A stretch of 64,000 bases of DNA, taken from assembly GCA_018729555.1 (NCBI GenBank), contig JAHHQG010000030.1, forward strand, positions 62,001 to 126,000, read 5' to 3'. The notes beneath the pieces were generated by a model. That model was not told the DNA's origin. It ran no database searches and saw only the letters and a list, made by a program, of their open reading frames with translations. The DNA is from Clostridiales bacterium. Its GTDB lineage: Bacteria > Bacillota > Sulfobacillia > RBS10-35. The position numbers and the translations under genes are program-made. This document shows positions 3,893 through 12,222 of the stretch, piece after piece; positions within the stretch are counted from its first letter, which is position 1, and each line of letters begins with the position of its first letter.

Positions 3893-5026
3893 ATGGCCGG
3901 CGACGAAACCCGCCTTCAGCCCGACGAAGCCCTGCGGGAAGCCCAGAAGGCCAAAAAGGGCCGCCACCGCATCTACCTGGGCTATGCCGCCGGGGTGGGG
4001 AAGACCTACGCCATGCTCCGGGAAGGCAACCGCCTCCTCCAGCAGGGGCAGCGGGTGGTCATCGGGGTGCTGGAGCACCACGGCCGCCAGGAGACCCTGG
4101 ACCAGGTGGGTGATCTCCCCATCATCCCCAAAAAGCGCATCCCCTACAAAGGCGTCATCCTCGAAGAGATGGACCTGGACGCCATCTTGGCCCTCCACCC
4201 CGACTGGGTCCTGGTGGACGAGCTGGCCCACACCAACGTTCCCGGCTCCCGCAACACCTACCGTTACCAGGACGTCCAGGAACTGCTGGAAGCCGGCATC
4301 AACGTCATGTCCACCGTCAACATCCAGCATGTGGAGAGCCTCAACGACATCATCAGCCGCATCACCGACGTGGAAGTGCGGGAAACCTTCCCCGACTGGG
4401 TCCTGGACCAGGCGGACGAGATCATCCTCGTGGATATCCCTCCGGAAGTTCTGGAAGAGCGCCTCCGCCAGGGGAAAGTCTACGATCCCCAGAGGGCCCA
4501 GCGGGCCCTCAAGAACTTCTTCCGCAAGGGAAACCTCCTCGCGTTAAGGGAGCTCACCCTCCGCAAAGTGGCCCAGGAGATGGACGATCTCCTGGGGGAC
4601 TACCGCAAGGATGAGCAGATCGAGGAAACCTGGGCCACCTCCGACCGGATCCTGGTGGCCATCACCCCGCAGGAATCCTCCCGAGCCCTCATCCGGGCGG
4701 GTTGGCGGGTCGCCCAGCGCCTCAAGGGGGACCTCTACGTTGTCCACGTTCGCCAGAGGCCCCTCACGGAGGAAGAGGAGGGCACCTTAGACCGCCTTAT
4801 GGATTGGGCCCGAAAGCTGGGGGCCACCGTCCGCCAGGTGGAACACCGGGATCTGGTGGAGGGCCTTCTCCAGGTGGTGGAGGAAGAGGAGATCACCCAG
4901 CTGGTCATCGGGGCTTCGCGGCCATCCCGCTGGCAGGAGATCCTCTACGGCTCTCCCATCACCCGCATCCTCCGCAAGCACCCCCAGCTGGATCTCCTCG
5001 TCGTCTCCGACCGCACCCGGGATTAG
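3893..5026 (+). CDS. kdpD: Short KdpD-like sensor protein (KdpD N-terminal and USP domains only)
   Basis: This 377-residue protein has the KdpD N-terminal domain with Walker A GYAAGVGKTYAML (about residue 24) and the conserved DELAHTNVPGSRN region (about 117), followed by a universal-stress-type domain from about residue 245. The transmembrane segments, GAF region and histidine kinase of full-length KdpD (about 900 residues) are absent, and no response regulator follows. Its start has a good ribosome site (GGAGGAGG). Such short forms are known next to kdpABC in some Firmicutes and Deinococci. I infer it senses a signal and acts on the pump or an unlinked kinase. The stop overlaps the convergent mutM stop. 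Confidence 0.9.
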   Translation: MAGDETRLQPDEALREAQKAKKGRHRIYLGYAAGVGKTYAMLREGNRLLQQGQRVVIGVLEHHGRQETLDQVGDLPIIPKKRIPYKGVILEEMDLDAILALHPDWVLVDELAHTNVPGSRNTYRYQDVQELLEAGINVMSTVNIQHVESLNDIISRITDVEVRETFPDWVLDQADEIILVDIPPEVLEERLRQGKVYDPQRAQRALKNFFRKGNLLALRELTLRKVAQEMDDLLGDYRKDEQIEETWATSDRILVAITPQESSRALIRAGWRVAQRLKGDLYVVHVRQRPLTEEEEGTLDRLMDWARKLGATVRQVEHRDLVEGLLQVVEEEEITQLVIGASRPSRWQEILYGSPITRILRKHPQLDLLVVSDRTRD

Positions 5027-8640: not shown

Positions 8641-9612
8641 TCAACGATCCGACAAAAAGGTGACTTCCACCTGGGCCCATTGGGCTGCCTGCCAGAGCTG
8701 GACCCTTTTTTCCTCCAAGGCTTCCCGTTCCGCCTCCGACGGCGCCGCAGGTTCCCCTTGCAAAAGGGCTTTCCATGCCCGCTCCGCCTGCCGCAGTTCC
8801 TCGTCCAGGGGGATGGCCTCCACCTTCAGCTCCTTCAGATGCCCCTGGTCCGCCAGGGTGGCCACCAGATCGTCCACCAGAGCCGAGGACACCTGCAACC
8901 GCAAACGGGCCCCTCCTTCCTCCGAAGCTTTCCCCTCCACCAGACGAGCTCCGAAGCGAGCAGCCGCCTTGAGGGTTCCGGCAAGGGAGCTCTCCACATC
9001 GGCGCTGGTCACCGTCACCCACACCAGCCGCTGGTAACGGGGAGGGTCGGTGGGGAAGAGAAGGGGCGCTTCTCCGGCTCCCTGAAGGGCGGCGGCCGGC
9101 GAGGCGGCCGCCCGCGATGCGACGGTCGCTTCCTTGTCGGGAGGCTGGTCCCCCTCCGCCCGGGCTTCGGAGGAAGCCCCTTCATCCACGGACAGGGGCT
9201 TTACGTCCTCCGCCGCAACTTCCGCCTCGGCATGGAGCTCCTTTGCCGGCTCAGGATGCCATGACGACCAGGCCAAGATCCCTCCCCCGGCCCCCGCCAG
9301 GAGGAGGAAAAAGGCGGCCACCGCCGCCAAGGCGACCTGCCAGCCCCGTCCCACCGCCCTTGCCGGGGCGGACCGGGCCGCCACCAGGGGGGCATAGCGA
9401 AAGAGGCGATCCCGCAAGGTGGCCTGAAAGTGGGGCGGAAGGGGCGGGAGGGGCAGCTGCCGCAGGGCTTCCTGCATCTGGCGCAGATCCTCCAGCTGCC
9501 GGGTGCAGTCAGGCTCCGACGCCAGGGCCAGCTCCACCCGGACCCGTTCTTCGGAGCTCACCTCGCCGTCGAGATAGGCGCTCAACAGTTCCGGCGGGAG
9601 GGAGCAGGTCAT
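8641..9612 (-). CDS. Membrane anti-sigma factor, RsiW-like, with degenerate zinc site
   Basis: This 323-residue protein starts with an anti-sigma fold (about residues 1-65; LLSAYLDGEVS). A single membrane helix (about 92-113) is followed by a long extracytoplasmic part ending in a coiled-coil-rich region. It starts just after the ECF sigma gene (TGA-G-ATG), so it is the expected antagonist of that sigma factor. The usual HxxxCxxC zinc motif reads ALASEPDC: the histidine and first cysteine are replaced and only the last cysteine remains. Release would be by regulated proteolysis if it follows the RsiW model, which is inference. Confidence 0.8.
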   Translation of the reverse strand: MTCSLPPELLSAYLDGEVSSEERVRVELALASEPDCTRQLEDLRQMQEALRQLPLPPLPPHFQATLRDRLFRYAPLVAARSAPARAVGRGWQVALAAVAAFFLLLAGAGGGILAWSSWHPEPAKELHAEAEVAAEDVKPLSVDEGASSEARAEGDQPPDKEATVASRAAASPAAALQGAGEAPLLFPTDPPRYQRLVWVTVTSADVESSLAGTLKAAARFGARLVEGKASEEGGARLRLQVSSALVDDLVATLADQGHLKELKVEAIPLDEELRQAERAWKALLQGEPAAPSEAEREALEEKRVQLWQAAQWAQVEVTFLSDR

Positions 9613-9613
9613 C

Positions 9614-10216
9614 TCATTCCACCTGCCTTTCCCCTTCCTGGACGGAAGATGACGGCAAAAGTTCCGCCATGAGGGCCCGCCGAAGGGCCATGCGGGCCCG
9701 ATGGAGGCGCGATTTCACCGTCCCCTCCGGGATCTGCAGCACCTGGGCGATGTCGGCGTAGCTCAACCCCTCCACGTCCCGCAGCACCAGAGGCACCCGG
9801 AACTCATCGGGGAGGGAGAGGAGGGCCCGTTCCAGCTCCGCCCGGTGCTCCTTGCGCAGCACCACCGCCTCCGGGCCGGGCTGGGGATCGGGCCAGTCGA
9901 CCTCTTCCAGGTCATCCCCTTGGGGGCGGATGTCCACCACCCTGGGCCGCCTTTGGCGGCGGCGGTACTCATCCAGGCAGACGTTGGTGGTGATGCGATG
10001 GAGCCATGTGCCGAAGGACGAATCGCCGCGGAAGGTGGGAAGGGAGAGGAAGGCCTTCAATAAGGCCTCCTGCGCCATATCGGCGGCATCTTCCGGATCC
10101 CCCGTCAGGCGGAGAGCCAGGTGGTAGACCTTCAGCTGGTGGCGGGCGATGAGTTCCTCAAAGGCCGCCACCTGCCCTTCTTGGGCCAGGCGCAGGAGCT
10201 CCTTTTCCGATACCAT
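9614..10216 (-). CDS. ECF RNA polymerase sigma factor (SigW/RpoE type)
   Basis: A 200-residue sigma-70 family factor. Region 2 (about 20-90) shows DAADMAQEALLKAF and GTWLHRITTN; region 4 (about 135-185) shows LPDEFRVPLVLRDVEG and the helix-turn-helix EGTVKSRLHRARMALRR. The next gene encodes its presumed anti-sigma. It lies 34 bases downstream of tRNA-Leu, so both could share a transcript. The regulon cannot be read from this window. Confidence 0.95.
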   Translation of the reverse strand: MVSEKELLRLAQEGQVAAFEELIARHQLKVYHLALRLTGDPEDAADMAQEALLKAFLSLPTFRGDSSFGTWLHRITTNVCLDEYRRRQRRPRVVDIRPQGDDLEEVDWPDPQPGPEAVVLRKEHRAELERALLSLPDEFRVPLVLRDVEGLSYADIAQVLQIPEGTVKSRLHRARMALRRALMAELLPSSSVQEGERQVE

Positions 10217-10249: not shown

Positions 10250-10336
10250 TGGTGCCGGAGGTGGGATTCGAACCCACACGGCCTTGCGGCCACACGATTT
10301 TGAGTCGTGCGTGAATGCCAGTTCCACCACTCCGGC
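10250..10336 (-). tRNA. tRNA-Leu (anticodon CAA)
   Basis: The sequence folds as a class II tRNA. The acceptor stem GCCGGAG pairs with CTCCGGC, followed by discriminator A and an encoded CCA. The anticodon loop is CTCAAAA with anticodon CAA, which reads UUG. A long variable arm (GTGGCC-gcaa-GGCCGT type) and GGGTTCGAATCCC in the T arm are visible. A short T run follows the CCA. Confidence 0.97.
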
Positions 10337-10370: not shown

Positions 10371-11303
10371 TTAGCCATTGTCAGCCTGTGCCAAGTTGGG
10401 CATATTTTCGACCTCGATGCTGAGATCCAGCAGATCACCGCCCCGGAGGACCGTCAACGTGGCCCGCTCGCCGGGGCGCCGCCGGGAAAGGAGCCTGCGG
10501 ATGGCCCCCAGCTGGTGGACCGGCTGACCGTCGACGTAGACCACCAGATCCAGGGGCTGGACACCGGCCCGCGCCCCCGGCCCGTCTTCCGCCACATAGG
10601 TGACGGCCACGCCCCGCTTCACCGGCAGGGCAAAGAGCTGGGCCACGGCGGGATCCACCTCTTGCGCCTCCCCGCCAAACCCCAGCCAGGCATGGGTGGC
10701 CTCCCCGTACTCGATGATCTGATTGGCCACCCGCCACGCCGTCTCCGCCTGGACCGCCAAGCTGAGGCCGTGCATCCAGCTGAGGATGCTCACTCCCGCC
10801 ACCTGGCCGTCCAAAGTCACCAGGGGGCCGCCGATGTTCCCGGGATGGACCAGGGCATCGGTGACGATGAGGCCATCCACGGGGAGGCGCTCCGGCCGGT
10901 AGATGCTGCGGTCAGCCGCCACCACCACCCCCATGTTGGCCGTCACCCCCTGCCCGAAGGAATCCCCCAGGGCCAAGACGATGCGGCCCGCAAAGAGCTC
11001 CTCTTCGTTCAAAAGGGGCGGCAAGACTTCCTCGGCCCGGCCTTCCAGGCGCAAGAGGGCAAGGCCGTAAAGGGGATCGGTCGCCACCGGGTACGCCGGG
11101 AACTTCCGCCCCTCAGGGGTGCGGACGGTGAGCTCCCATCCTTTCTCCCCCAGCTGAGCGCTGGTGAGGACATGGCGCCGATCGATAAAGGTCCCGCTTC
11201 CCAGGGTCACGGAACCGTCCTTGTGGCGCTGGCCAACGATGTGGGCCACCGCCTTCCTCCCCATCTCCACCGCCTGGCGGTTGGCCTCCGACCACCGATC
11301 CAT
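10371..11303 (-). CDS. HtrA/DegP-like protein with PDZ domain and lost catalytic triad
   Basis: A 310-residue protein with a trypsin-like fold followed by a PDZ domain (from about residue 225, with GPGARAGVQPLD). All three triad positions are altered. The His segment reads LTSAQLG (Q for H), the Asp segment reads DPLYGLALLRL (G for D), and the Ser segment reads GNIGGPL (I for S). No signal peptide or membrane anchor is seen, so it is probably cytoplasmic. The start ATG at 11303 follows AAAGGAGGTGGCGGC. It is likely a scaffold or binding protein rather than a protease. The fold call is firm; the role is unknown. Confidence 0.85.
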   Translation of the reverse strand: MDRWSEANRQAVEMGRKAVAHIVGQRHKDGSVTLGSGTFIDRRHVLTSAQLGEKGWELTVRTPEGRKFPAYPVATDPLYGLALLRLEGRAEEVLPPLLNEEELFAGRIVLALGDSFGQGVTANMGVVVAADRSIYRPERLPVDGLIVTDALVHPGNIGGPLVTLDGQVAGVSILSWMHGLSLAVQAETAWRVANQIIEYGEATHAWLGFGGEAQEVDPAVAQLFALPVKRGVAVTYVAEDGPGARAGVQPLDLVVYVDGQPVHQLGAIRRLLSRRRPGERATLTVLRGGDLLDLSIEVENMPNLAQADNG

Positions 11304-11388
11304 GCCGCCACCTCCTTTTCGTTCGTCGGCTATTTCCACTATATCACGACCTTTCCCATTCCCTAGGGCGTGCTACCATGGGCGTAGG

Positions 11389-12222
11389 ATGAAACGCCTT
11401 TTCCTCGTTCTTGCCCTTTTCCTCGCCTTTTTCTTGACGGCTTGCCGGCTCTCGCCGGCCACCCCCCTGGCCGAGACGCCGCCGCCCCTTCCCCTTCCCC
11501 AGGAAGGGGAGCCGGCCCCGCCCCGGGAACCGGAAAAGGTCACCCAATGGCCGCCGGTGGCCGTCCTCATGTACCACCAGCTGGGCGACCCACCGCCGGG
11601 CCACCCGTGGCCGGAGCTCTACGTCTCAAAAGACGCCTTTGCCGCCCAGCTGGACTGGCTGGATCGGGAAGGCTTTCACCCCGTGACCCTGAAGGAAGTT
11701 CTCACCGCCTGGCGGGAAGGCCGCCCTCTTCCCGATAAGTCCGTGGTCATCACCTTCGATGACGGCTATGCCAGCACCGTCCAGGTGGGCCTCCCCCTGC
11801 TGCAGGCCCATGGCTTTCCCGCCGTCCTCTTCCTCCAGGGAAACCTCCTCAACCGGGCCGGCGCCGTCAGCGACGCCATGGTCCGCACCTGGCTGGAAGC
11901 CGGCATGGAGCTGGGGTCCCACACCATGCGCCACCTGGACCTCACCCGCGCCTCAGAAAAGGATCTGGAGGCGGAGGTGGTGGGCTCCCGCTCCTTCCTG
12001 GAAACCACCTTTGACATACCGGTCCTCACCTTCGCCTATCCCGCCGGCCGGGCCGACGACCGGGCCCGGTCCATGGTGGAACAGGCGGGCTACGAAGCCG
12101 CCTTCACCACCCGGTCTGCCTGCGCCCGGGCGGAAGATGATCCCTTTCTCCTCCCCCGCCTGCGGGTGAACGGGAGCGACAGCCTGGAGGCCTTCGCCCG
12201 CAAAGTCAGCTGCCACCCCTAG
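11389..12222 (+). CDS. Polysaccharide deacetylase lipoprotein
   Basis: A 277-residue exported protein. The N-terminus has a signal peptide ending in a lipobox (FFLTAC), so it is probably anchored to the outer face of the membrane. The NodB domain shows VLMYHQLG, the metal-binding TFDDGY (about residue 120) and SHTMRHLDL (HxxxH, about 175), and FAYPAG. Members remove acetyl groups from peptidoglycan or other GlcNAc polymers. It is divergent from the HtrA-like gene with an 85-base gap. The substrate is not known. Confidence 0.93.
   Translation: MKRLFLVLALFLAFFLTACRLSPATPLAETPPPLPLPQEGEPAPPREPEKVTQWPPVAVLMYHQLGDPPPGHPWPELYVSKDAFAAQLDWLDREGFHPVTLKEVLTAWREGRPLPDKSVVITFDDGYASTVQVGLPLLQAHGFPAVLFLQGNLLNRAGAVSDAMVRTWLEAGMELGSHTMRHLDLTRASEKDLEAEVVGSRSFLETTFDIPVLTFAYPAGRADDRARSMVEQAGYEAAFTTRSACARAEDDPFLLPRLRVNGSDSLEAFARKVSCHP

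Follow-up and report, generated by a model that had tools for sequence, protein, structure and literature searches.

What role can remain for an HtrA-like protein in which all three catalytic residues have been replaced and no means of export is apparent? The question is raised by a gene at 10371..11303 on the (-) strand of the window, as we call the whole 64,000-nucleotide stretch of bacterial DNA that was analysed. Bacterial HtrA proteins are in general described as proteases outside the cytoplasm. An earlier note had described the product as a conserved dead protease of the cytoplasm that retains its PDZ domain, and had proposed for it a binding or scaffold role; orthologues with an intact triad, or a relocated active site, were named as findings that would speak against this.

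Fold of the protein and replacement of its triad

Translation of 10374-11303 (-) gives 310 amino acids in an intact reading frame, with the stop codon at 10371-10373. The ATG at 11303 is preceded by a strong ribosome-binding site, the Shine-Dalgarno sequence AAGGAGGTG at 11309..11317 (-), with a spacing of 5 nt, so that a longer product starting from the GTG at 11339 is less likely. A helix (residues 3-18) is followed by a trypsin-like domain (about 20-185) and a PDZ domain (about 200-300). The latter, encoded at 10404..10706 (-), was delimited as residues 200-300 from the Pfam PDZ_2 match (229-298) and from conservation. Both Trypsin_2 (E 7e-16) and PDZ_2 (E 4e-13) pass the Pfam cut-offs, and the claim of a retained PDZ domain is thus borne out.

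Pfam, AlphaFold2 and a fold search of the PDB agree on an HtrA-type architecture, a trypsin-like fold and then one PDZ domain. The AlphaFold2 model, built from a 17-row alignment, has a mean pLDDT of 89.9 and a pTM of 0.84; its lowest-confidence ten-residue block, the C-terminal tail aside, is 131-140 in loop L3 (mean 71). The closest solved folds are those of DegQ, DegP and DegS (Foldseek E down to 2e-27, VIA-align Z about 28-29). The protein shares with these the order of the domains, the carboxylate-binding loop of the PDZ domain and the overall fold, but has neither their triad nor an export signal or anchor. Thirteen NCBIfam families match at E 1e-5 or better, none of them above its cut-off; the best HtrA/Deg score is that of TIGR02037, 162.6 against a cut-off of 416.2.

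By alignment the position of the catalytic His is occupied by Gln50 (11154..11156), that of the Asp by Gly80 (11064..11066) and that of the Ser by Ile157 (10833..10835), all on the (-) strand, and the His-Asp-Ser triad of HtrA/Deg (S1C) proteases is therefore absent. The motifs around these positions are preserved (VLTSAQ, DPLYGLALL and HPGNIGGP), as had been claimed. At E 0.01 or better the source genome, of 2.27 Mb in 70 contigs (completeness 96%, contamination estimate 7%), has two more HtrA genes; in both the triad is intact and the N-terminus hydrophobic.

Distribution, descent and predicted location

We refer to the family of dead copies as group A, to its intact sister as group B and to the other HtrA rows as group C. 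When 60 related genomes were searched, another 16 proved to hold a nearly complete match (44-65% identity), separated by a clear gap from the next-best matches (41% or less). A profile from the 17 rows, the window protein and these 16, was then used to search 154 genomes of the class, at most 15 candidates being scored per genome; once identical or contained sequences had been collapsed, 99 rows remained. Among the matches listed, group A orthologues occur in 30 of the 154 genomes and 13 of the 48 families. Two of the 30 copies are contig-edge fragments; the partial copies of G137 (L104) and G142 (L126, 103 C-terminal residues) stand outside the 28 complete rows, and that of G142 was assigned to group A from its sequence alone, without the triad positions. 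The count for group C leaves out the partial row L079 and a second L104 frame.

Neither the same-genus genome G001 (91% complete) nor the f3 genomes G003 and G010 gave a group A match among the matches listed, and the group is widespread within the class, yet patchy. In an even sample of 398 genomes of the phylum, some of them in-class, the only out-of-class match at E 1e-60 among the best five candidates per genome was G408, an intact group B row. A contig scan with short exact peptides reached only close relatives and gammaproteobacterial HtrA proteins. In G006 the same gene lies on contigs C7 and C47 (L033 and L034) with 12,927 identical surrounding bases on both, which suggests redundancy of the assembly and not a true second copy. 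We found no paper on the family in the open-licence literature searched. A survey of 2008 reports 42 inactive homologues among 966 serine proteases and homologues in 91 prokaryote genomes, Symbiobacterium included, and a group A member may be present in its supplement (PMC2605481).

Loss of the triad is common to the group. In the 28 complete copies the His position is Gln in 21, Pro in five, and Arg and Gly in one each, and the Asp position is Phe in 24, Tyr in two, and Gly and His in one each, which makes the Gly of the window protein unusual where 26 of 28 have Phe or Tyr. The Ser position is Thr in 14, Val in six, Met, Ile and Ala in two each, and Asn and Ser in one each. The search for orthologues that the earlier note had suggested thus shows replacement of His in 28/28, of Asp in 28/28 and of Ser in 27/28, the sole complete member with Ser at the nucleophile position (L100, in G092) having Gly for His and Phe for Asp. 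No intact triad was found among the 28 orthologues, while all three residues are present in 67/67 other complete HtrA rows (29/29 of group B and 38/38 of group C).

It might be argued that group A has remained a hydrolase whose active site has been relocated or is built on Thr, given that Thr takes the place of the Ser in half of the copies and that the GNxGG loop is mostly retained. We regard this as extremely improbable. The His that would serve as general base is missing from every complete copy, the Ser position varies among seven residues, and at a threshold of 90% the 28 copies have no conserved Ser, Cys or Lys. This makes it unlikely that a serine or cysteine site has moved elsewhere, and for want of a conserved Ser, Cys or Lys we rejected a relocated nucleophile.

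In all 18 group A pairs that are 80% identical or more, dN/dS lies between 0.08 and 0.18, similar to the 0.04-0.22 of 22 such group B pairs; by this measure close pairs of dead copies are under purifying selection. The window copy is in none of these pairs because its nearest relatives are only 65% identical. Taken with the orthologues that have undergone the same loss, this rules out a one-strain defect or a pseudogene, and the dead protease can be called conserved, as was proposed.

A tree of 76 rows (28 of group A, 29 of group B and 19 of the 38 of group C), built after masking of the triad columns and those adjacent to them, places the 28 dead copies in a single clade with support 100/100. 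Groups A and B together have support 100/99, with group C as the outgroup; group B is sister to group A or, with G408 basal, paraphyletic. Since the dead copies form one clade beside an intact and seemingly unanchored lineage, catalysis was probably lost a single time.

The window protein begins with a helix and has no hydrophobic stretch. Between a point 23 residues before the ATG and residue 21 we detected no hydrophobic segment (best 19-residue mean hydropathy -0.81), and the start lies at a strong ribosome-binding site, in agreement with the claim that no export signal is visible. Judged by sequence only, the export signal or membrane anchor of bacterial HtrA/Deg proteins is missing. The maximum hydropathy of the N-terminus is below 1.3 in 27/29 group A and 29/29 group B rows and at least 1.48 in 19/19 group C rows. 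In the two group A exceptions, L102 (2.13) and L087 (1.51), the hydrophobic stretch lies only upstream of the domain start or likely start, and a start codon with a ribosome-binding-like site is found at, or at most one codon from, the domain start. Group B, of which L043 4989-5936 (+) is one of 29 rows in which the triad is intact and an N-terminal anchor was not seen, is apparently an active cytoplasmic HtrA, which is unusual in itself.

The order of events that best fits these data is loss of the anchor, then duplication, then a single loss of catalysis. An ancestral HtrA without an N-terminal anchor would have duplicated, one duplicate retaining His-Asp-Ser as group B and the other losing catalysis, most simply once, to be maintained afterwards by purifying selection.

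Shift of constraint and proposed role

We compared groups A and B in eight genomes, one per family, of the 19 that hold both; the 28 genome pairs are drawn from only these eight and are not independent. Overall identity is equal (0.497 in A, 0.493 in B) but is differently distributed. The protease domain is less conserved in A than in B (0.455 against 0.551), as are residues 100-128 (0.39 against 0.65), L1 (0.70 against 0.94) and L2 (0.57 against 0.66). The reverse holds for the PDZ domain (0.572 against 0.434, A higher in 27/28 pairs), its carboxylate-binding loop (0.863 against 0.549, A higher in 28/28) and L3 (0.70 against 0.55, A higher in 24/28). The trend is uniform, in that subtracting protease from PDZ identity gives the larger value in A in 28/28 pairs. 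As far as these identities can tell, the active-site loops have lost constraint, and the PDZ domain, its carboxylate-binding loop and L3 have gained it. Folding or subunit contact, instead of peptide binding, could also account for the stronger conservation of the PDZ domain.

Two segments stand out. L3 is encoded at 10863..10913 (-) (residues 131-147, DRSIYRPERLPVDGLIV) and has Tyr135, Arg136, Pro141, Val142 and Asp143 invariant in 28/28 copies. The carboxylate-binding loop, at 10677..10697 (-), comprises residues 203-209 (THAWLGF; role from PMC11642142), of which WLGF is invariant in 28/28. Fixed and specific to group A are, among others, Tyr135, Arg136 and Val142 of L3, His153, Arg191, and Phe209 of the carboxylate-binding loop. 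L2 has become shorter, in most copies NGIPWxxGL. The window protein bears all the marks of the group: membership of the clade, loss of the triad, YRP...PVDG in L3, His153 and WLGF.

In DegS the peptide is recognized by the carboxylate-binding loop of the PDZ domain, and ligand binding there is reported to reposition L3, after which its Arg178 makes contact with the adjacent subunit, including the LD loop (PMC11642142). L3 of DegS senses whether the PDZ domain is occupied and relays this to the active site of the adjacent subunit. The parts that read the ligand, the PDZ loop and L3, are those that group A has kept and tightened, while the triad, L1 and the 100-128 region have been released; in other words, the sensor half of a DegS-type machine would be retained with its blade gone. 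Since the peptide-binding half is now protected and the cutting site lost, these proteins probably sense or hold other proteins rather than cut them.

We therefore favour, as the probable reading, that group A consists of conserved cytoplasmic pseudoproteases derived from HtrA that bind protein C-termini and serve as adaptor or sensor. The binding role put forward in the earlier note gains from the movement of constraint to the PDZ domain and L3; scaffold, adaptor and sensor are candidate forms of that role. Group A would probably form a trimer. The residue at position 4 (Trp, Phe, Leu or Ile in 28/28 complete copies) is compatible with the trimer that is the basic unit of HtrA proteins. The PDZ domain would grip the C-termini of cytoplasmic proteins as its putative ligands, and a remodelled L3 would change contacts with a partner protein rather than switch on catalysis. 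The simplest reading is thus a non-enzymatic binder of C-termini in which a partner may read the change in L3. Arg132 of group A is the residue that we take to align with Arg178 of DegS L3. It is Arg in only 20/28 copies, so that group A may not retain the signal relay of DegS. A more specific version, which we consider rather unlikely, makes group A a dedicated cytoplasmic reader of C-termini, a bladeless DegS-like sensor that would use PDZ and L3 to find exposed or damaged tails and pass them to a protease (group B in genomes that have it, an ATP-dependent one in the others) or to a regulator.

Chaperone-like activity is reported in many HtrA proteins (PMC11642142) and the fold is retained here, from which one may picture a cytoplasmic holdase whose chaperone function has outlived the protease. 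This is unlikely: such a role does not predict that one peptide-binding loop (WLGF), or the L3 motif, should be invariant, and the loops of the cleft diverge.

Dead HtrA homologues are already known in MamO, PflC and plant Deg proteins, which differ from group A in location or architecture. MamO likewise has an HtrA-related trypsin-like domain with a degenerate triad and is kept beside an active relative, but its protease domain is predicted to be periplasmic and is joined to a TauE-like transporter domain, and it has a non-Gly residue 193, a Trp in L1 and a di-His metal site (PMC4794232). Group A keeps Gly155 in 26/28 copies, and the NCBIfam MamO model scores the window protein at 41.9 against a cut-off of 800, which sets it outside that family. 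A trypsin-like domain repurposed in the manner of MamO for a metal or small ligand would give a purpose to His153, which replaces the canonical Asn in 28/28 group A and 0/29 group B rows, and to His204, the same in 28/28. His204 is, however, common to 29/29 group B rows too, and where MamO has H148 and D149 (PMC4794232) the Asp position of group A is preceded by Tyr79 in 28/28; we judge this use of the domain very unlikely. The MamO-like di-His site was rejected, Tyr79 standing at the place of the first His.

PflC, of the medial disk of the Campylobacter flagellar motor, is a triad-less structural part with HtrA-like protease and PDZ domains; it is periplasmic, has two PDZ-like domains and has lost the loop that bears the His (PMC12222027). 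Group A has one PDZ domain and keeps the motif contexts with the residues substituted, and the window protein, at 310 residues and with no signal seen, has neither the protease-PDZ-PDZ order nor the location of PflC. Among plant Deg proteins whose protease domains have lost triad residues, AtDeg7 is reported to use its inactive domain for trimerization, but it is eukaryotic, with two protease and four PDZ domains (PMC3473262). What appears to be new is a stand-alone, predicted cytoplasmic HtrA pseudoprotease common to many families of one class.

The intact sister group and the gene neighbourhood

Group B resembles group A in length, in the N-terminal anchor not being seen and in descent as a sister lineage, but has the triad in 29/29 rows, and its active-site loops, not its PDZ domain, are most conserved. 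Among the matches listed, 19 of the 30 group A genomes hold group B as well; eight families hold both (A in 13 and B in nine of 48), with a hypergeometric p of 3e-5 that is uncorrected for kinship. This invites the idea that group A is a regulatory pseudo-subunit that tunes group B through mixed trimers or direct contact, and there is a precedent in that MamO is required for MamE-dependent proteolysis (PMC4794232). The association may, though, be plain inheritance from one duplication, and in the reported work no physical contact of MamE with MamO was detected (PMC4794232). Furthermore, among the matches listed, 11 of the 30 group A genomes, including that of the window, are without group B (ten of the 11 at least 93% complete), and ten genomes have B without A, one of them (G086) assigned by score only. 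We think a pseudo-subunit unlikely. The co-occurrence is strong, but an obligate partnership is not supported.

Within one bacterial class, HtrA proteins without an export signal are found in many families, and one of their branches has dispensed with catalysis and tightened its PDZ domain. With live and dead relatives in the same genomes, it can be asked directly which components of the allosteric machinery of HtrA retain a use when nothing is cut.

When the ORFs near 17 group A loci were compared all against all, and those common to at least two other loci were listed, no neighbour family was present in more than four other loci, and around 11 group B loci no neighbour was common to more than one other locus. 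With no gene neighbour conserved across families there is no clue from an operon. Linkage is seen only within the order, to an adjacent deacetylase in G000, G002 and G006 and to an ECF sigma gene in G000 and G002; in two genomes of the order the pseudoprotease gene is near both tRNA-Leu(CAA) and the ECF sigma gene, with two further ORFs in between and the tRNA on the other strand in G002 (L063). In the window the divergent gene at 11389-12222 (+) encodes a polysaccharide deacetylase whose N-terminus is lipoprotein-like; a relative of this gene adjoins the pseudoprotease gene in G002 and G006. A tRNA-Leu lies at 10250-10336, and just downstream of it and of the pseudoprotease gene are genes for an ECF sigma factor (9614-10216) and a zf-HC2 anti-sigma factor (8641-9612). 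Elsewhere in the window, judged by eye, three ORFs that resemble a kdp operon are followed downstream by an ORF at 3893-5026 (+) for a KdpD-like N-terminal part of 377 amino acids that lacks a kinase domain.
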